NCBI GenBank assembly: GCA_028571685.1
Contig: CM053166.1
Coordinates: forward strand, 57,498,111 to 57,562,110
DNA: 64,000 bases
Origin: Heterohyrax brucei
Taxonomy: Eukaryota; Chordata; Mammalia; Hyracoidea; Procaviidae
Direction of reading: 5' to 3'
Shown: positions 2,590 to 60,933 of the stretch, piece by piece
Layout of the letters: each line of letters opens with the position of its first letter
Numbering within the stretch: the stretch's first letter is position 1
Notes under the pieces: generated by a model
The model's database searches: none
Seen by the model: only the letters and a program-made list of their open reading frames with translations
Told to the model about the DNA's origin: nothing
Position numbers and translations under genes: made by a program

Positions 2590-3592
2590 TTGTCAGCTAA
2601 ACCACCCTGCCTAGAAAAGCTATTAACTCCTCTGCTCCCATCTAATGAGATTAGCCCTAGCCCAGATGCCTCTAGAGAACCCTTGCCTAAGTCATTGCCT
2701 GGGTCACTGCCTGAAGCAGACACTTTAAAAAACAAAGCTGACTGTTGTCAGAACAATTCCACATCACTGATTCTGGCTTCCAGATCTATAACTAGACTTA
2801 AGCCTAGCCAGATCTAAAAGGTAAAGTAGAAAGTATGACAGAGGAGGAGGTATACTACCCTCCAAATGAATTGCTTGGCTTTTCTAATATGTATGAACAG
2901 AAACCTGGGGAATATGTGTGGAAATGGTTATTAAGGATGTGGGATAATGGTGCAAGGAACATAAAAATGCTTCAGTCTGAATTTATTGATATGGATCCAC
3001 TAAGGACAGATTCTTCATTCAGTGTTTCAGCTCAAGAAGTTAGGAAAGCATCTAATTGTCTATTTGTTGAGTTGCTGAAGCATGGCTGACAAAGTGGCCT
3101 ACACCAAATCAAGCTGAAGTACCAGACCTGCCTTTGTATACTACAGAAGAAGGTATCCAAAGCCTTAGGGAACTTGGCATGCTGTTGTTTTTAGGTGCTG
3201 CTGAGTCGGTTCTAACTCACAGCAACCCTGTGCACAAGAGAACAAAACACTGCTCAGTCCTGTGCCATGCCCACAATCATTTTTATGCCATGCTAGAATG
3301 GATTTAACCAGTTAGACCCTTGGACCCATACATGGAGTGCCCAGAGGACACACTGTTTATTACAACTGTGAGGAACAAATTTATGAAGGGAGCCCCAGCA
3401 TCCTTGAAGGCTACTGTGATTGCTAGTATAGGTAAATCACATTTGGCAGGAGGAATTGTCCTAATAGTATTAAGACATCTAACTACAATGGGACTGATTA
3501 GACCCTGTGGTAGTAGGGGACAAGTGGTTGCACTCAACCAACAAAGACAAGGTAGGTTCTTACAGCAAAGGGTAGCAGAATCAAAGCATTAA
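2590..3592 (+). pseudogene. ERVL gag remnant
   Basis: Capsid-precursor remnant in three pieces. The first (2590-2817) is Pro/Ser-rich. The second (2835-3089) contains ELLGFSNMYEQKPGEYVWKW and a downstream WDNGARNIKMLQSEFIDMDPL stretch typical of ERVL gag. It shifts frame near 3089 and continues as TKWPTPNQAEVPDLPLYTTE (from about 3090) up to about 3183, where an RTE tail is inserted. Gag-like reading resumes after 3295 and runs to 3592. Structural role in particle assembly is family knowledge; this copy cannot encode a protein. Confidence 0.7.
3184..3288 (-). mobile_element. 5'-truncated RTE/AfroSINE 3' tail inserted in ERVL gag
   Basis: The sequence is the reverse complement of the shared RTE/SINE tail (…GAGTCRGAACTGACTCGACRGC…AACAACAAC). 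The interrupted gag context repeats on each side: CATGCT at 3178-3183 and again at 3289-3294, consistent with a short target-site duplication. Confidence 0.65.
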
Positions 3593-12069: not shown

Positions 12070-13826
12070 TGTTTTAGTCAGCTAGGGCTGCTCTAACAGA
12101 AATACCACCAGGTGGATGGCTTTAACAAAGGAAGGTTTATTCTTACACAGTCCGGTAGGCTGCAAGTCCATATTCAGGGTGTCCGCTCCAGGGAAAGGCT
12201 TTCCCCTTGTCGGCTCTGGAGGAAAGTCCAGTATTGCATCAGTCTTGGTCCAGGGAGCGTCTTGGCGCAGGAACCTCAGGTCTGAAGGATGCGCTCTTCT
12301 CCCAGTGCTGCCTGCTTGATGGTAACGAGGTTCCCAATTCTCCTTGTTTCTCTTTCTTTTTATCTCTTGCAGGCTGAAAGGATTAAGGGTGGGGGGCAAG
12401 TGATACTCCAGGGAAACACTCGCTACAGCAGAGCAAGGAAGTAATCCTATGCAGGAATTTACAGCCCCACCCTAATCCTTTAACATACAGTTTAGTGAAA
12501 CCACAAAATGGAGGACAGTCCCAAGATACTGGGAATCATATCCCAGCCACATGCTACACATATTTGGGGGGAACACAATTCAACCCATGACATCCCACCC
12601 TTTGAAAACCCAAAAATCACATCACAGAAACATTTAACACATTCATCTCACCATAGCAAAATCATGTCCATCCCATACAACAGAAGTCTTAAATCAGTTC
12701 CAAGTCCAAAATACAAAAACTCTTCTACATCTGTGAAACCTAGAAGGTAAGCTATCTGCTTCTAAAGGTACAATGGCAGAACAGGCACAAGTTAGACATT
12801 CCATTACAAATGGAAGAAATTGCAGGGAAAGAAGGCATTAACAGGCAACAGGTGAGTCAACAGAACACATTACATTAGCCCTCAAAGCTTTGGAAATACT
12901 CTTACATTTTCTGAGATATTCTACACAATGACCCTGTCCTCGAGACTGAGGTATTGGCCACACTCTGTATTCTGAGTGGAAACCCCAGCCCTGTGCTACA
13001 ACTCTGCCTTCAAGGCCCACTTGGACAGAAACTCTGGCCCATCGGCTTTAGGAGCACCCTAAGCCCAACTGAGTGGAAATTCCGCCCTTACAAACACAGG
13101 ACACCATGGGTCCACCCTTTCAACTCCCTGAGGTCATGCCCATACCTTTTGAGACTGAGGCAGCTCAGCTTCTGGCACTGTCTGTCTCTTCAGCTTCAGT
13201 TTCGTATGGCCACATGGCCTGGGCCTCAGGCCCACATCTGCCCTGCCAGGCAAGTGTTCCAAAGCTCTGTAGCTCCACTGATTTAAGTGCCCGGAGGCAC
13301 TGTTTTAGTCAGCTAGGGCTGCTCTACCAGAAATACCACAGAATGGATGGCTTTAACAATTGAAAGTTTATTCTTACACAGTCCAGTAGGTTACAAGTCT
13401 GCACTCAAAGTGTCTGTTCCAGGGGAAGGACTTTCCTTCTTGTTGGCTCCAGAGGGAAGTCCTCGTGTTGCATCTGTCCTTATTCAGGGAGCATCTTGGT
13501 GCAGGAACCTCAGGTCTGAAGGATGCGCTGTACTTCAGGTACTGCTTTCTTGATGATGTGAGGTTTCCCATTCTCTACTTGCTTCCCTTTTCTTTTATCT
13601 CTTGTAAGGTAAAAGGATAAAGAGTGGTGCAAGTCATACTCCAGGGAACCTCCTTTTACAGTGGAGCAGGGAGGTGATCTTATGAAGGGATTTACAGCCC
13701 CACCCTAATCCTCTAACACACAGCGTAGGGAAATCACAAATGGAGGACAGTCATAAAACACTTGGAATCATGGCTCAGCCACACAGCTACACATGTTTTT
13801 GTGGAGACACATTTCAATCTGTGACA
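12070..13826 (-). mobile_element. MaLR-like provirus: LTR 12070-12592, internal 12593-13300, LTR 13301-13826
   Basis: Both LTRs begin (in + orientation) TGTTTTAGTCAGCTAGGGCT and end in TGACA. The internal region starts after the polypurine tract (TCCCACCCTTTGAAAACC on +, 12593-12610) and is homologous to the internal regions at 48097 and 56836. It stops at CCGGAGGCAC (13300), directly against the second LTR, so the leader and primer-binding site seen in the other copies are missing. The flanks (GTGGG versus AGCTA) do not form a target duplication. It has no coding capacity. Confidence 0.75.
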
Positions 13827-27528: not shown

Positions 27529-27655
27529 TGTATGTCTACTCCTTATGTCAAGTTCATTTGAATGGGCCACTGTTTCTCTATTCTTTGTGTGTCTTGTAGT
27601 TTTTTATTGGGGCACTGGAATTTTCAGGGATGTTAACTTTCTCAGTTTTCCCCAA

Positions 27656-28214
27656 TGTCTCAGGCTGGGTTCTCCAGAGAAACAAAGCCAGTTAAGCATA
27701 TTAATAGATATACAGAGAGCTTTATATCAATGAAACAGGCTTACACAACTTTAGAAGCTGAAACATCCAATATCCTTGGGTCAGGCTAGAGGCTTCTCCT
27801 GATTCATACAGCTACAGGGGGTGACAAACCCATCAGTCCACGGGGCTCTTGCTCACAGGCTGCAAAGACCAATGAATCCCAATATTGGTCAGCAAGATGG
27901 TAGGTTAGCTGCTAGCTCAAGTCCCAAGAACTGGAGATCAGATAAATGGGAGCCAATTGCAGGATCCAGAGTAAGCAAAAGCCTGAGAGCTTTTCCAGAG
28001 TCCATGCATATTGGATACAGGCTATACCCTCAAGGAAACTTTCATTCAACTGATTGACCACTTACAGCAGATCTCATTATAGAGGTGATCCTATTATAAT
28101 AAATCTGATCATGAAGGTTATTACATCATCACACAACTGCTAAACTACATCATAACTGCTAAACCACTGAGAATAATGGCCCATTCAAGTTGACACACAA
28201 CCTTAACAATCACA
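27656..28214 (-). mobile_element. ERVL/MLT2-like solo LTR
   Basis: On + it starts TGTCTCAGGCTGGGTTCTCC and ends AACCTTAACAATCACA, the reverse complement of TGTGATTGTTAAGG. It shares the GAATCCCAATATTGG and CAAGTTGACACAC blocks of this LTR group. No internal region adjoins. Confidence 0.8.
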
Positions 28215-28889
28215 TCTAATGTTTGGTGGTGTTGCCCTCAATACTTTCTGCAAGAAACTCTTAGGTAGGTGAAGCCTTTGGCGTTTGCTTACCATTTCCT
28301 CTCCGTCTCTATTATAGCTCCTTCTCCCTCTCTGGTTTAATTAATTGGGGTCTAAGAATGCCAGATCTCATTTTTCAACTTTCAATCTCCTGCAAACACA
28401 CCAGAGAACATGCTGTGGTCAGTCTGTCCACCAGCAGACCAACACTAGGATGAGATATCATGTACTGATCAATCTAATCACTAGAGATGCAATTCCCTCT
28501 CTATGATTGTTACTCCCTTCCCTTCCCTGTTTCTGTAATCATGTTTCTACTCAGAAAACCCACACCCAATAAGGACTCTTCAGAGCTGAGTGTTGTTGTC
28601 CATTTTGTCCAACATTTCCTTCCCTGTTTTGTGGGGCCTGTGTAAATATGAGCTGACATTTAGTGGAAGAACAAGCAGACTTTTCCCCCATTTTAGGAGA
28701 AGGAGGGACTGGCACTACCCATAAGGACCTCCAAGAGATCTATCTTGGTAGAGGTCCAATAGCCCTGTAGTGGTTGGGAAAGAAGTTTCCACTTTGGTGA
28801 TCCAAATCCTAACTCTACTGTATGGTACCTTCTGCAGTAGTTTGTATCAGTTCAGCAGCCATCAGTTGCTAGTTGAGGGAGGGATAGTC

Positions 28890-47596: not shown

Positions 47597-49285
47597 TGTT
47601 TTAGTCAGCTAGGCTGCTCTAACAGAAATACCACAGAGTGGATGGCTTTAACAAAGAAAGATTTATTCTTACACAGTCCGGTAGGTTGCAAGTCCATATT
47701 CAGGGTGTCTGCTCCAGGGAAAGACTTTCCCCTTGACGGCTCTGGAGGAAAGTCCGGTATTGTGTCAGTCATTGTCCAGGGAGTGTCCTAATGCAAGAAC
47801 CTCTGGTCTGAACGACGCGCTCTGCTCCCGGTGCTGCTTGCTTGATGGTAGTGAGGTTCTCCAATTGTCCTTGGTTCTTTTTCCTTTTATTCCTTGCAAG
47901 CTAAAAGCATTAAGGGTGGGGCAAGCCATACTCCGGGGAAACTTCCCCCATAGCAGGTATTCACAGCCCCACCCTAATCCTTTAACATACAGGTTAGCAA
48001 AACCACACAATGGAGGACATTTCCAAGATACTGGGAACCATATCCCAGCCACATGGCTGCACACATTTTTGGGGGGACACAATTCAAACCATGACATCCC
48101 ACCCTTTGACAACCCAAAAATCACATCACAAAAGCATTTAACACATTCATCTCACCATAGCAAAATTATGTCCATCCATATAACAGAAGTCTTAAATCAG
48201 TTCCAAGTCCAAAATACAAAAACTCTTCTACATCTGTGAAACTTAGAAGGCATTAACAGGCAACAGGCAAGTCAACAGAACACATTACATTAGCCCTCAA
48301 AGCTTTGGAAATACTCTTACGTTTTCTGAGACATTCTACACAACAGCAATGCTCTCCAGATTCTAGGTATCAGCCACACTCTCAGGTTTCTGAGTGGAGA
48401 CCTCCAGCCCCGTGCTACAACTTTGCCTTCAAGGCCCACTTGGACAGAAACTCTGTCCCATCGGCTTTAGGAGCACCCTAAGCCCAACTGAGTGGCAATT
48501 CCACCCTTACGAACATAGGACGCCATGGTTCCACCCTTTCAAACCCCTGAGGTCATGGCCATACCTCTTGAGACTGAGGCAGCTCAGCTTCTCACGCTAT
48601 CTGCCTCTTCAGCGTCAGCTTCCTGTGGCCACATGGCTTGGGCCTCAGGCCCACATCTGCCCTGCCGGGCAAGTGTTCCAAAGCTCTGTAGCTCCACTGG
48701 TTTAAGTGCCCGGAGGCACCCCACTCTTGCTGGAAAGCGTCCTGCCCAAAGGCACTCAACTCTCTCACTCCGTGGGTCAGCAAGGCCAGCTCACCGATTC
48801 AAGTGCCCAGAGGCACCCCGTTCCGCGAGGAAAACTCTGCGCAGGCACTGACCTCTCTCGCTCCACGGGTCGGCTCCAGCGCTGCCTCTGGTTCTGCTGC
48901 TGCCGCTGCCGCTGCTGCCGGTCCTCTGTTGTTTCTCACCATCTGCGCCTTCTTCGTTCCTTCTGAATCTTCTATCCATTTGCAGTTTCAAAGTGGCTTC
49001 CACATTTTAGGTATTTGCTAGAGCAGCACCCCACTCCTGGTACCAATTCTGTTTTAGTCAGCTAGGCTGCTCTAACAGAAATACCACAGAGTGGATGGCT
49101 TTAACAAAGAAAGATTTATTCTTACACAGTCCGGTAGGTTGCAAGTCCATATTCAGGGTGTCCGCTCCAGGGAAAGACTTTCCCCTTGACGGCTCTGGAG
49201 GAAAGTCCGGTATTGCATCAGTCATTGTCCAGGGAGTGTCCTAATGCAAGAACCTCTGGTCTGAACGACGCGCTCTGCTCCCGGT
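47597..49285 (-). mobile_element. MaLR-like provirus: LTR 47597-48096, internal 48097-49049, truncated LTR 49050-49285
   Basis: The left LTR is 500 bp. The right LTR is identical for its first 236 bp except for three positions, then breaks off at CTCCCGG and joins L1 3' UTR (TACATTTTCACTCAG), so a deletion removed its outer half together with about 15 bp of L1. The internal region has a polypurine tract at 48097-48110 and a PBS at 49028-49045. Open frames of up to 168 codons run across LTR and internal sequence but show no family features. It is the youngest-looking LTR pair here. Confidence 0.85.
49028..49045 (-). promoter_or_regulatory. Primer-binding site matching tRNA-Leu 3' end
   Basis: On minus the 18 bases TGGTACCAGGAGTGGGGT are fully complementary to the 3' end of the tRNA-Leu(UAA) type including CCA. 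A four-base spacer (GAAT on minus) separates it from the LTR. A Leu primer is characteristic of ERVL/MaLR. Confidence 0.8.
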
Positions 49286-50168: not shown

Positions 50169-53100
50169 ATGGCAGCACTGAACACATACCTATCAATAGT
50201 TACATCGTATGTAAATGGACTGAGTGCTCCAGTAAAGAGACATCGAGTGACATCTTGGATCAAAAGACACAATCCATCCATATGTTGCCTACAAGAGACT
50301 CACCTTAGACTTAAAGATAGGAACAAACTGAAAATTAAAGGATGGAAGAATATATATCAAGCTAACAATGAACAAAGAATAGCAGGTGTGGCAATTCTAA
50401 TCTCAGATAAAATCGATTTTAACGTAAAATTCATGATTGTGGACAAGGATGCACACTATTGCTGAAAGGTTCAATACACAAGCAGGACTTAACAATATTA
50501 AATATTTATGCACACATACTAGAGTATATAAATGCAGCGAAGAAACACTGACTACACTAAAAAATGAGATAGATCACTCCACAATAACAGTGTGAGGCTT
50601 CAACACTCCACTCTCAATATTGGACAGACTGTCTAGTAAAAAAGCTCAATAAAGACACAGAAGACCTTATTGCCGCCATTAACCACCTAGGCCTCGTTGA
50701 CATATACACAGCTTTCCATCCATCATCAGACAACTACACCTTCCTCTCCAGTGCCCATAGAACATTCTCCAGAATAGACTATGTGTTAGGACATGTCATG
50801 GATTGAATTGTGGCCCCCCAAAAATATGTGCAGCCATGTGCCTGGGCCATAATTGCCAGCATCTTGTGACTGTCCTCCATTCTGTGGTTTTCCAATGCTG
50901 TATGTTAAAGTATTAGGGTGGGATGGTAAATCCCTTTATAAGATGACCTGCCTGCTCCACTGTAAAGGGAGTTTCCCTGAAGTATGGCTTACCCCACCCT
51001 TAATCCTTTCATCCTACAAGAAGAGACAAAAGGAAAGAAAAGCAGGCAGAGAACGGGGAAACTCATACCATCAAGAAAACAGCACTGGGAGAAGAGCGCA
51101 TCCTTCAGACCTGAGGTTCTTGCACCAAGACGCTCCCTGGACAAAGACTGATGCAATACTAGACTTTCCTCCAGAGCTGACAAGGGCAAAGCCCTCCCCT
51201 GGAGTGGACACCCTGAATATGGACTTGCAGCCTACCAGACTATGTAAGAATAAAGTTTCCTTTATTGAAGCCATCCACTCTGTGGTATTTCTGCTAGAGC
51301 AGCCCTAGCTGGCTAAAATAGGACATAAAGCAATTCTCAACAAAATCCATACCACTGAATTAATCCAAAGCATCTTCTCAGATCATAAAGCCATAAAAGT
51401 CAAAATCAATAGCAGAAAAATATAGATAGAAAGTGGAACTCATGAAAACTGGACAACATCTTGCTCACAAAGCCATGGGTTATAGAACAAATCAAGGATG
51501 AAATAAAAAAATTTATGGTTTCCAGTGAGAATGAAAACATTTCCTACCTGAACCTATGGGATACAGCCAAAGCAGTGCTCAGATGTCAGTTTATCTCGAT
51601 AAATGCACACATCTGGAAGGAAGAAAGAAACCAAATCAAAGAACTAACCCTACAGCTTGAACAAGTAGAGAGAGAACAACAGAGGAACCCCTCAGGCACC
51701 AGAAGAAAACAGACCATAAAGATTAGAGCAGAACTAAACCAATTACAGAATAGAAGAACAACTGAAAAGATTGAAAAGACCAAAAGATGGTTTTTTGAAA
51801 AGATCCACAAAATTGACAAATCATTGGCTAAAGTTACTAAAGAAAAACAGGAAAGGAAACAAATAACCCAAATAAGAAATGAGAGGGGACTTGTCATAAC
51901 AGATCCAACAGAAAACAAAAATATCGTAACAGAATACTATGAAAGACTGTACTCTAACAAATATGAAAACCTAGAGGAAATGGACAAAGGTGATGTAGAA
52001 CAACTTAATAAACCCATCACAAAGGAAGAGATTGAAAAAGTCACTCAAAAACTACCAACCCAAACCAGCCTGGGACCAGATGGCTTCACCGCAAAATTCT
52101 ACCAAGCTTTTAGAGAGGAGTTATCTCCAATACTACTGAGACTATTTCACAGTATAGAAAGGGATGGAATACTCCCAAATTCATTCTATAAAGCCAGCAT
52201 AACCTTGATTCCAAAGCCAGGGAAAGACGCAACCAAAAAGGAGAACTACAGACTGATATCACTCATGAATCTAGATGCAAAAATCCTCCACAGAATTCCT
52301 GCCAATACTTATATAAAAAAAAAAAATAATCCATTGTGACCAAGTTGGATTCCTACCAGGGTTGCAAGGCTGGTTCAACATCAGAAAAACAATTAATGTG
52401 ATCAACCACATAAATAACACAACAGACAAGAGTTCACCTGATTTTGTCTATTGATGCAGGAAAAGCATTTGATAAAGTCCAACACCCACTCATGCTAAAA
52501 ACTCTCAGCAAAACAGGAATAGACAGCAAATTCCTCAATGCAATAAGGGCCATTTATAGAAAACCAAATGTCTACGCATCCTGAATGGAGAGAGACTGAA
52601 ACAATTTCCCTTGAGAATGGGAACTAAACAAGGATGCCCACTCTCACTCTGCTATTCAACATTGTACTAGAAGTTCTAGCCAGAGCAATTAGACAAGACC
52701 AAGAAATGAAGGGCATTGGCATTGGCAAAGAAGAGGTAACAATCTTCCTATTTGTAGATGATATGATTGTATATGCAGCGAATCCTAAAAAATCCACAAG
52801 TAAACTACTCAAACTGATAAAAGAGTTCAGCAAAGTCTCATGATAAAAGATATACATGAGTAAATCAGTAGGATTCCTTTATACCAACAACGAGATTATT
52901 AATGAAAAAATCACCAAATCAATACCATTTACTATAGCCCCTAGGAAGATAAAGTACCTAGAAATAAATCTAACCAGAGAAATAACAGACCTTTACAAAG
53001 AGAACTACAAGACCTTACTACAAGAAACTAAGAGAGACTTACGTAAGTGGAGAAACCTACCCTGCTCACGGATAGGAAGACTTAACATTGCAAAAATGTC

Positions 53101-56263: not shown

Positions 56264-57730
56264 TATCTTAGTTATCCAGTGCTGCTCTAACAGAAATACC
56301 GCAAATGGATGACTGTTTTAGTCAGCTAGTGCTGCTCTAACAGAAATACACAGAGTGGATGGCTTTAACAAAGGAAGGGTTATTCTTACACAGTCCGGTA
56401 GGCTACAAGTCCATATTCATGGTGTCTGCTCCAGGGAAAGGCTTTCCCTCTTGTTGGCTCTGGAGGAAAATCCAGTGTTGCATCAGTCTTTGTCCAGGGA
56501 GCATCTTGGCACAGGAACCTCAGGTCTGAAGGATGTGCTCTTCTCCTGGTGCTGCTTTCTTGATGATACAAAGTTCCCAAATTTCTGCTTGCTTCTCTTT
56601 CCTTTTATCTCTTGCAGGATGAAAGGATTGAGGATGGGGCAAGCCATCTTCCAGGGAAACTCCCTTTACAGTGGAGCAGGGAGGTGATCTTATAAAGGGA
56701 TTTACCATCCTACCCTAATACTTTAACATACAGCATAGGAAAACCACAAAATGGAGGACAGTCACAAGGTACTGGGAATCATGGCCCAGCCACATGGCTA
56801 CACATTTTTGGGGGGACACAAGTCAATCCAGGACATCCCACCCTTTGGCACCCCAAAAATCACATTGTAGAAACATGCAACACGTTCATCTCATCATAGC
56901 AAAATCATGTCCATCCCATATGATAGGAGTCTTAAATCCGTTCCAAGTCCAAAATACAAAAACTCTTCTACATCTGTGAAACCTAGAAGGTAAGCTATCT
57001 GCTTCTAAAGGTACAATGGCAGAACAGGCACAAGTTAGACATTCCATTGTAAATAGAAGAAATTGCAGGGAAAGAAGGCATTAACAGGCAACAAGTGAGT
57101 CAGCAGAATGCATTACATTAGCCCTCAAAGCACTGAAAACACTTACATTTTCTGAGACATTTTACACAATGGCCCTACCTTCCAGTCTGTAGATATTGCC
57201 CAAACTCTCTGGTTTATGAGTGGAGACCTGTGCTACAACTCTGCCTTCAAGGCCCACCTGGACAGAAATTCTGCCCCATGCGCTTTAGGAGTACCCTAAG
57301 CCCAAGTGAGTGGCAATTCCACTCTTACGAACACAAGATGCCATGGTTCCACCCTCTCAAACCCCTGAGGTCATGGCCATACCTTTTGAGACTGAGGCAG
57401 CTCAGCTTCTCACGCTGTTTGTCTCTTCAGCTTCAGCTTCTTAAGGCTGCATGGCCCGAGCCTCAGGCCCACATCTGCCCTGCCAGGGCAAGTGTTCCAA
57501 AGCTCTGTAGCTCCACTGATTTAAGTGCCTGGAGGCACCCCGATCCATGAGGAAAACTGCACAGGCACTCAGCTCTCATGCTTCATGGGTCGGCTCCAGC
57601 ACTGCCTCTGGTTCTGCTGCTGCCACCAGTTCTCTGTTTCTCACCATCTGAGACATCTTTGTTACCTCTGAATCTTCTATCCATTCACAGTTTCAAAATG
57701 GCTTCCACATTTTAGATATTTGCTAGAACA

Positions 57731-57748
57731 GCACCCCATTCCTGGTAC
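57731..57748 (-). promoter_or_regulatory. Primer-binding site (tRNA-Leu) of the chimeric provirus
   Basis: ACCCCATTCCTGGTACCA on +, one mismatch from the perfect site at 49028. The spacer to the LTR is AAA on +, unlike the ATTC spacer of the MaLR-like provirus at 49046-49049. Confidence 0.75.
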
Positions 57749-57753
57749 CAAAA

Positions 57754-58277
57754 TGTCTTAGGCTGGGTTTTCAAGAGAAGCAAAAGCTGTAACATATGTA
57801 GATACAAGGAAAGATTTACAATATATATAGATAGATAGATATAGATATAGGAAACAGTTCATGCAGTCGCAAAAGCTGAATGTCCCAAGACCTGGCACAA
57901 GCCTCACGTGGCCATGGAAGCTGATGAACCCAAAGTCGGCAAGTCAGAGACCAGAGTTCCAGATCACCAGTTGTGTAGGTCAGTGGATCCCAAGCTGGCA
58001 GCGAGACGGAGTGGTAGAGGCTGGCGAACCCAGGATCGGCAGGTCAGGGAGCAGGACTCTCAAGCACCGACTGTAAGCATTGACAAATCCAATAGTGGCT
58101 AGTTCAAGTCCGGAAGAAGAGAGCAGGAGCTCCTGGCTACCAGAGCAGACCAGCAGTAGTAGGGAAAGGTTGAGAGATGAGAGCTGAGGGGTGGGAAGCC
58201 ACCACAGACCCCACCCTGCCACTTAATACAGCAGCCAAATATAGAGTAGCCAAGTTGACATAATCATGACCACCACA
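57754..58277 (-). mobile_element. ERVL/MLT2-like LTR acting as 5' LTR of the chimeric provirus
   Basis: On + it starts TGTCTTAGGCTGGGTTTTCA and ends AATCATGACCACCACA. The ends and the ACTTGGCTACTC-type start (minus) place it with the LTRs at 7928, 24377 and 27656. It has no target duplication of its own. Confidence 0.8.
57822..57850. repeat. ATAG/ATAGAT simple repeat
   Basis: ATATATAGATAGATAGATATAGATATAGG inside the LTR at 57754-58277. Confidence 0.85.
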
Positions 58278-58868
58278 ATGACTTTAACAGAGAAATTTAT
58301 TTTCTCACAGTCTAGTAGGCTAGAAATCCCAATTCAGGGTGTCAGCTCCAGGGAAAGGCTTTCTCTTTGTCTGCTCTGGTGGAAGGCCCTTCTCATCAAT
58401 TTTTCCCTGGACTAGGAGCTTCTGTACATAGGATCTCTGGGTCCAAAAGATGTCCTTGGCTCCCAGGACTGCTGCCTTGGTGGCGTGAGGTCCCCCTGTC
58501 TCCCTGCTCATTTCTCCCTTTTATACCCAAAAGAATTTGACTCAAGGACAATCCAATCTTATAGATTGATTCCTGCCTCATTAACATAACTGCTGCCTAT
58601 CTCCACTCATTAACATCATAGAGGCAGGAATTATAACACATAGGAAAATCACATCAGATGACAAAATGGTGGACAATCACACAACACTGAAAATCATAGT
58701 CCAGCCAAGGCCAAGTGCTGTCAAGTCTGATCCGACTCATGGCAACCCTAGGCAAATCAACCCTAGGCAAAATACCCATATTTTAGGGGAACAAGATTCA
58801 ATTCATGACATTCCACCCTTTGCCCCCCATCACATCCTTGCAATATGCAAAACATATTCACCCCATCA

Positions 58869-59525: not shown

Positions 59526-60933
59526 ATCATATTATAGCAAAAATCCTAACTCTAAGACCCAAATCCAAAATACTTGTGTTCATCTGCTAAATCTAGAATA
59601 CAAGTTATCTGCTTCCAAATGTATAATGGCAGAAGAGGCACAAGTTAAACATTTCCATTACAAATGGGAGAAACTGGAGGGAAAGAAGTGGTAACAGACA
59701 CCAAGTAAGTCAGTGGAACACTTTACATTAGCCCTCAAGGCTTTGAAAATAATCTTCTGTTTTCTGAAACAATTTATATGCTGAGCCTGCCCTCCAGACT
59801 CGGTGTTGGCCATAGTCTACGGATTCTGAATGGTGGTTGCTCAGCCCTGGGCTTCAGCTTTGCCTTCCAGGCCCACTGAAACATCAATTTTTCACCGTCA
59901 GCTTTAGATACACCGTTCTACTAGTTTACCTGAGTGGCAAATCCACCTTTAGAAATACCAGAGGCTATGGTTCCACCCTTTGAAGTTCCACAGGTTGTAC
60001 CCATACCTTTAGGAACGAGGCAGTTTGATTTCCTTTTTTCCTTGTCTCTTCAAATTCTGCTTCCTGGTCCTTTGACCTCTTGGCCCTCAGGACTTATACT
60101 TGCACCTGCCCTGCTGGGGCAAGTGTTCCAAAGCTCTACAGCTCCTCTGACAAGTGCCCAGAGACACACCACTCCAAGAGTAAACTTCAGCTGGAAGGCA
60201 GTTCTCTTGCTCTGTGGGTCAGCTCTAGTGCTGTCTCTCATTGATCTCCTGGTTCTGCTGCTTCCTGTCTTCTGCTGTATGAGGTCCTCTACTACTGTTT
60301 CTAGCCACTTCCTCAATTCCTTCTCAGTCTTCTACTGATTCACAGCTTCAAAACTACTTCCACATTTTGGGTATCTGTTAGAGGATCACCCCAGTCTCAG
60401 AACCAAATTCTGTCTTAGCTGTCTAGTGCTGCTGTAACAGAAACACCACAAATGGATGACTTTAACAGTGAGACATTTATTTTCTTACAGTTTAGTAGGC
60501 TAGAAATCCAAATTTAGGGTATCAGCTCTAGGTGAAGGCTTTCTCTGTTTGCTCTGGAGTAAAGTCTTTCTCATCAATTTTTCCCTGGACGAGGAGCTTC
60601 TCTGCACAGGAACCCTGGGTCCAAAGGATGCACTTGGCTCCCAGCACTGCTGTTTTCGTGGTATGAGGTCACCTTGTCTCTCTGCTCACTTCTCTCTTTT
60701 ATATCCAAAAGAAACTGGCTAAAGACACAACCCAATGTTGTATGTTGGGTCTTGTCTCATTAATATAACTGCTGCCTATCTACTCTCATTAAAATTATAG
60801 AGGCAGGATTTACAACACATAGGAAAATCACATCACATGACAAAATGGTGGATAAACACATAATACTGGGAATCGTGGCCTAGCCAATTTGACACACATT
60901 TCTGGGTGACACAATTCAATCCGTGACAACTTA

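Follow-up and report, generated by a model that had tools for sequence, protein, structure and literature searches.

The unit described here occupies positions 56314–58277 of a 64 000 nt stretch of Heterohyrax brucei DNA (the window) and is read on the minus strand. From 58277 down to 56314 it consists, in order, of an ERVL-type LTR, a spacer, a tRNA-Leu primer-binding site (PBS), a MaLR-type internal region, a polypurine tract (PPT) and a MaLR-type LTR. The names ERVL and MaLR for the window parts are our working assumption, taken from the preliminary description and from context rather than from a consensus library. The 5′ LTR (524 bp, 57754–58277, minus strand) was assigned from its genome matches and its LTR kin; it has TG...CA ends and is 86–89% identical to 39 other scored places in the genome, and elsewhere in the genome LTRs of this kind run into ERVL internal sequence. 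Within the window it has only short or weak matches (54 bp, 31 bp, and 318 of 491 columns against 27640–28240). The 3′ LTR (522 bp, 56314–56835, minus strand) was assigned by its similarity to other LTRs of the window, with 79–87% identity over nearly the full length to those at 12070, 13301, 39524, 42373, 47597 and 50794–51318. The internal region (915 bp including the PBS, 56836–57750, minus strand) shows 81–88% identity to the window pieces 12593–13300 and 48097–49046, and its PPT (56836–56848, minus strand) adjoins the 3′ LTR; most of the 29 other units discussed below also have such a tract before their MaLR LTR. The preliminary description had claimed that two LTRs of different families belong to one provirus, and this agrees with our data: alignment of 57754–58277 with 56314–56835 gave zero aligned columns, and there is a single pair of ATGAC repeats.

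These repeats, read directly from the sequence at 56309–56313 and 58278–58282, bracket the whole unit as a target-site duplication, at the coordinates originally given. The host is an older MaLR-like LTR on the minus strand, whose end lies to the left of the insertion (56266–56313, collinear with the sequence from 60411 on) and whose remainder follows at 58283–58830 (58278–58708 is 83% identical to 60456–60887). With the unit and one ATGAC removed, the joined flanks run collinear, through the join, with the second LTR of the host element (from 60411), which confirms that the removal restores the older LTR. A separate duplication around 57754–58277, which had been named in advance as a finding against a single insertion, was looked for and is absent (CAAAA on one side, ATGAC on the other); the insertion of a solo ERVL LTR is thereby ruled out.

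The ERVL/MaLR junction falls in or next to the 18-nt PBS (TGGTACCAGGAATGGGGT on the minus strand, 57733–57750). A genomic tRNA-Leu(taa) gene ends in ...ACCCCACTCCTGGTA and is, with CCA added, complementary to the PBS except for one base; ARAGORN found no tRNA gene in the window. Between the 5′ LTR and the PBS lies the spacer TTT (57751–57753, minus strand), which is AAA on the plus strand, as the preliminary description had stated in contrasting it with ATTC in the pure MaLR-like copy of the window. On the minus strand that copy has the spacer GAAT, which is the MaLR norm, being present after the MaLR LTR in all but two cases among the matches listed; the spacer after the ERVL LTR is mostly ATT among the matches listed, grafted places included. 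Since ATT is the ERVL norm, the TTT of the window is one change away from an ERVL spacer. In the window unit and the listed grafted places alike, the join is at the PBS and the donor spacer is kept.

We searched a 3.49 Gb genome that contains the window. Apart from the window itself, the seven best matches to the 5′ LTR are L002–L008; one of these, L003 (refetched as L009), has the same two LTR types and carries an extra insert beside the PBS. A 600-base junction query had 8991 candidates, of which 40 places were scored, and every one of the 40 spans an ERVL LTR and a MaLR internal region; because such a query favours copies of exactly this kind, the result shows recurrence and not rate. Thirty loci were fetched from it (L010–L039, L010 being the window itself). 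MaLR LTR sequence is found on the 3′ side in 29 of the 29 others, although in L032 this applies to the first 127 bases only, and in none of the 30 is the MaLR internal region flanked by ERVL LTRs on both sides. An established family with the ERVL LTR at both ends, which had been raised as an objection, was thus absent from these loci, and the grafted LTRs do not group as a single lineage (see below).

The pattern 'ERVL LTR end + 3 nt + PBS' matched 904 places (none in the reversed control) and the pattern 'MaLR LTR end + 4 nt + PBS' matched 1208 (one in the control). As a less biased sample we took the first 30 exact places of the 904, all of them on contig C1. Thirteen lead directly into ERVL internal sequence, including five (L040–L044) that have common flanks and look like copies of one insertion. 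Another 12 lead into a MaLR internal region, counting L050, which has no recognisable ERVL LTR body. The other five (L048, L049, L054, L061 and L067) continue into other sequence, with ERVL sequence further in for L048, L049, L054 (assigned to ERVL by an automatic sort) and L067, and a MaLR LTR straight after the PBS in L061. As a rough estimate, if the proportion of 12 in 30 held for all 904 places, there would be about 360 grafted copies against about 1200 own-LTR junctions. Two of the sampled loci show particular arrangements: in L050 a piece of MaLR LTR gives way to ERVL-type sequence in the 20 nt preceding the PBS, and L067 is a fold-back variant with an ERVL LTR, the PBS, 113 nt of inverted pol and then sense pol.

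Longer patterns, allowing up to two mismatches and giving no matches in reversed controls, were used for the direction of the joins. They gave 399 matches for an ERVL LTR leading into an ERVL internal region, 223 (53 exact) for an ERVL LTR leading into a MaLR internal region and one (L073) for a MaLR LTR leading into an ERVL internal region. The 223 are pattern matches of which part were inspected; at two mismatches, internally deleted ERVL copies like L054 may be included, and copies whose PBS has three additional bases, like L046, escape the pattern. The one match in the reverse direction is a compound locus with two PBS joins in succession, namely an ERVL LTR (its last 56 bases within the locus), PBS, MaLR internal region, MaLR LTR, PBS and ERVL internal region. 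A further MaLR-LTR-to-ERVL join, made via tRNA read-through and therefore invisible to the direction pattern, is present in L076. A single rare event is ruled out by the 40 junction places, the 29 of 29 loci with the same arrangement as far as readable, and the 223 pattern matches. Thus, the hybrid junction reported in the preliminary description stands and further ones of its kind are found in the genome, but the single fossil envisaged there is not unique. One of the patterns, run against viral contigs, gave no matches.

An exact 5-bp duplication at the strict position was found in 17 of the 36 asymmetric units examined, as against one of 1260 flank pairs taken from different units. The 36 exclude L032, L050, L051, L053 and L057, whose ends were not placed, and L052 and L059, which are the same places as L027 and L013. 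Among the 19 units without an exact strict duplication, there are near misses in L011, L013, L019, L030, L033 and L039, uncertain LTR starts in L018, L022 and L026, a second MaLR piece that makes the end doubtful in L015, and no close match in L012, L014, L016 and L036. The ends of L058 are clear and no duplication is present. In L021, L028 and L031, which also have no exact duplication, ERVL internal sequence lies upstream of the ERVL LTR, so that strong-stop DNA alone is insufficient to account for them; no same-strand ERVL LTR was found in the ∼8 kb upstream (L070–L072). The flanks of L017, compared by eye, repeat a stretch of well over 100 bp rather than 5 bp, and the end of its 3′ LTR is damaged, which suggests capture without integrase.

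These units were very probably generated by recurrent intermolecular plus-strand (second) transfer, in which ERVL strong-stop DNA moved onto MaLR minus-strand cDNA at the shared PBS and the product was integrated as one cDNA derived from two RNAs. In such a process ERVL RNA would yield plus-strand strong-stop DNA composed of U3-R-U5, the spacer and a copy of the 3′ end of tRNA-Leu. This DNA would anneal through the PBS to a MaLR-type minus-strand cDNA, not to its own minus strand, and would be extended to the end of the MaLR LTR, after which ERVL integrase would insert the asymmetric linear cDNA and create the 5-bp target duplication. The same route had been put forward in the preliminary description; it is supported by the anatomy of the unit with its one duplication, by recurrence across the genome, by counts that run almost entirely in one direction, by a spacer close to that of ERVL, and by grafted LTRs that group among ordinary ones. 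We infer that the ERVL and MaLR RNAs were both present in one particle and that ERVL was the source of the reverse transcriptase and integrase. The pol pieces of related ERVL copies match PF17921 and PF17919, in each case below the curated cut-offs. The one-way bias is probably due to the shortness of the MaLR internal region, whose minus strand would reach the PBS and accept strong-stop DNA before that of ERVL does.

Traces of the intermediate appear to be preserved in L009, which is flanked by the duplication GTCAC and comprises an ERVL LTR, the PBS, ∼50 nt of tRNA-Leu(UAA), an inverted piece of ERVL pol, a MaLR internal region and a MaLR LTR. The tRNA read-through and inverted pol, at L009 positions 3250–3486, are placed between the PBS and the MaLR internal region. 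The pol piece is 93.8% identical over 194 nt to L049, and the ∼50-nt piece matches the 3′ half of the genomic tRNA-Leu(taa) gene (47 nt at 89%); at the matching locus L077 ARAGORN predicts tRNA-Leu(taa). A Pfam search with 63 aa of the inverted pol and an Rfam search with 49 nt of the tRNA piece gave no match. The two pieces meet at GATCCAATGG, a sequence that pol and the tRNA have in common. L075 and L076 contain a join of this kind, which brings read-through into tRNA-Leu(UAA) to three loci. A pair of MaLR LTRs in inverted order is a further feature of L076, and the join pattern matches C2:158340618 and C20:1859094 as well. On the simplest reading, synthesis of strong-stop DNA continued into the tRNA primer, after which the 3′ end would have annealed to ERVL sense RNA and been extended, and the product would have moved to another minus strand. 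Such behaviour is to be expected of a free strong-stop 3′ end in search of a partner, and the three loci thus support the intermolecular transfer.

It is unlikely that free or double-stranded cDNAs were joined outside a shared particle, through repair at the 18-nt PBS. Co-packaging is itself an inferred step, and the long direct repeat at the flanks of L017 is unlike an integrase product, both of which would fit such repair; but the inverted pol and its junction at GATCCAATGG point to a plus-strand 3′ end that first copied the tRNA and afterwards annealed to ERVL sense RNA, and symmetric repair is not expected to give a one-way bias.

A different possibility is that a chimeric family, with an ERVL LTR, a MaLR internal region and a MaLR LTR, arose once or a few times and has since multiplied as a unit. 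The copies are certainly numerous, as seen from the 40 junction places and 223 pattern matches, but ordinary reverse transcription makes both LTRs alike, so that the asymmetry would not be inherited. Neither do the grafted ERVL LTRs behave as a single lineage. In a tree built from 55 ERVL LTRs (37 from asymmetric copies, nine from ordinary ones, three from copies with ERVL deletions and six without a tested internal region), the grafted LTRs are mixed with those of ordinary ERVL-internal copies, and the asymmetric label requires 16 changes compared with a mean of 15.3 for shuffled labels. Branch support in this tree is low (two of the 50 inner branches starred, 31 open). Forcing all asymmetric rows into one clade, on a quick tree of 48 rows that leaves out the six solo rows and L018, cost a dlnL of 182 (p-AU 1.4e-5), so that a single clade is rejected. 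The grafted LTR of L046, a unit bracketed by the duplication GCCCT, is identical over 644 bases to the ordinary ERVL LTRs of L060 and L065, both of which lead into ERVL internal sequence. At the other end, the MaLR LTRs from 34 asymmetric copies are interspersed with six further MaLR LTRs of the window (six changes, shuffled mean 5.7–5.8).

Joint descent is better matched by some individual copies. L051 and L058 share one MaLR deletion, from internal position 122 to LTR position 268 and without a PPT, and their MaLR bodies differ at 18 of 387 positions, but their ERVL LTRs differ from each other at 53 of 412 positions plus 56 gap columns. Splicing was rejected as the origin of this deletion, as the join, inspected by eye, lies in a short shared GAACC and not at the nearby GT. 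The young copies L017, L021 and L031 are equally close in all three parts, being ∼4% apart in the ERVL LTR, the internal region and the MaLR LTR. Across 30 copies, double-centred correlations were 0.54 between the ERVL LTR and the internal region and 0.60 between the ERVL LTR and the MaLR LTR. This covariation comes partly from the young group; with six copies dropped, the remaining 24 gave a raw r of 0.46 (p 0.003) and a residual r of 0.175 (p 0.005) for the two LTRs, and a raw r of 0.26 (p 0.08) and a residual of −0.08 for the ERVL LTR and the internal region, so that the parts still covary to some degree. Copies of the same age, or subfamilies active at the same time, can produce this, and limited unit-wise spread may contribute. 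As a general explanation of the asymmetric units, however, a chimeric family is very unlikely.

That a normal MaLR provirus later had its 5′ LTR replaced, through gene conversion, recombination or solo ERVL insertion, is extremely improbable: recombination between repeats is common and the MaLR-type provirus at window 12070–13819 has neither a PBS, its 5′ LTR (13301–13819) meeting the internal region directly, nor a visible 5-bp duplication at its flanks, but 17 of 36 units carry the duplication around their full length, none surrounds 57754–58277 alone, and replacement would need repeated exact stops at the LTR tip and at the PBS.

The transfer mechanism itself has been proposed for HIV-1, where asymmetric-LTR proviruses (26 of 88) were attributed to a switch of strong-stop DNA onto the PBS of the second co-packaged genome (PMC9278108). 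Those products have deletions into the 3′ LTR, as do L051 and L058; in HIV-1, however, the two LTRs are of a single viral origin and a deletion distinguishes them, whereas here they belong to different families and are read from a genome assembly. Intermolecular second-strand transfer has also been argued for in HIV-1 heterozygotes (PMC5651808), where no U5/gag breakpoints were seen in 27 proviruses; the equivalent join here has 223 pattern matches in one genome. The proposed supply of machinery by a coding element to a putatively non-coding partner resembles the MusD/ETn pair, but MusD is described as the likely progenitor of ETn, and the two LTRs of the window unit have no aligned column; the same paper calls the mouse MTA MaLR non-autonomous and related to MERV-L (PMC6466679). 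MaLR pieces also occur in mosaic HERV proviruses, for which recombination, secondary integration or a chain-building artefact has been offered, and no PBS-joined unit with two LTR families is named in the available part of that report (PMC4724089). The accessible part of PMC10735291 contained no relevant statement. Judged on titles and the openings of abstracts, none of the papers listed describes an ERVL LTR on a MaLR internal region, and joins between two LTR families that occur at numerous germline sites and run mostly one way appear, on that basis, to be new. Through them the germline preserves a record of second strand transfer, a step that earlier HIV studies, as cited in PMC5651808, have called generally intramolecular.

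In the present data, the pattern counts suggest that a physical ERVL–MaLR join is present in hundreds of insertions, up to the identical graft of L046. The movement of MaLR elements on ERVL proteins has been argued mainly from relatedness. The joins also show how a non-autonomous element can exchange its promoter in a single step. We consider it rather likely that ERVL strong-stop DNA has acted, over the long term and recently, as a one-way movable promoter end, with a large share of MaLR proviruses completed in trans and the plain reverse occurring almost never. If so, the genome records the frequency of intermolecular second transfer between unlike RNAs, and MaLR RNAs without a PPT could integrate by graft only.

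The older LTR that hosts the window unit carries a SINE-like insertion of its own at window 58700–58780, presumably AfroSINE-like.
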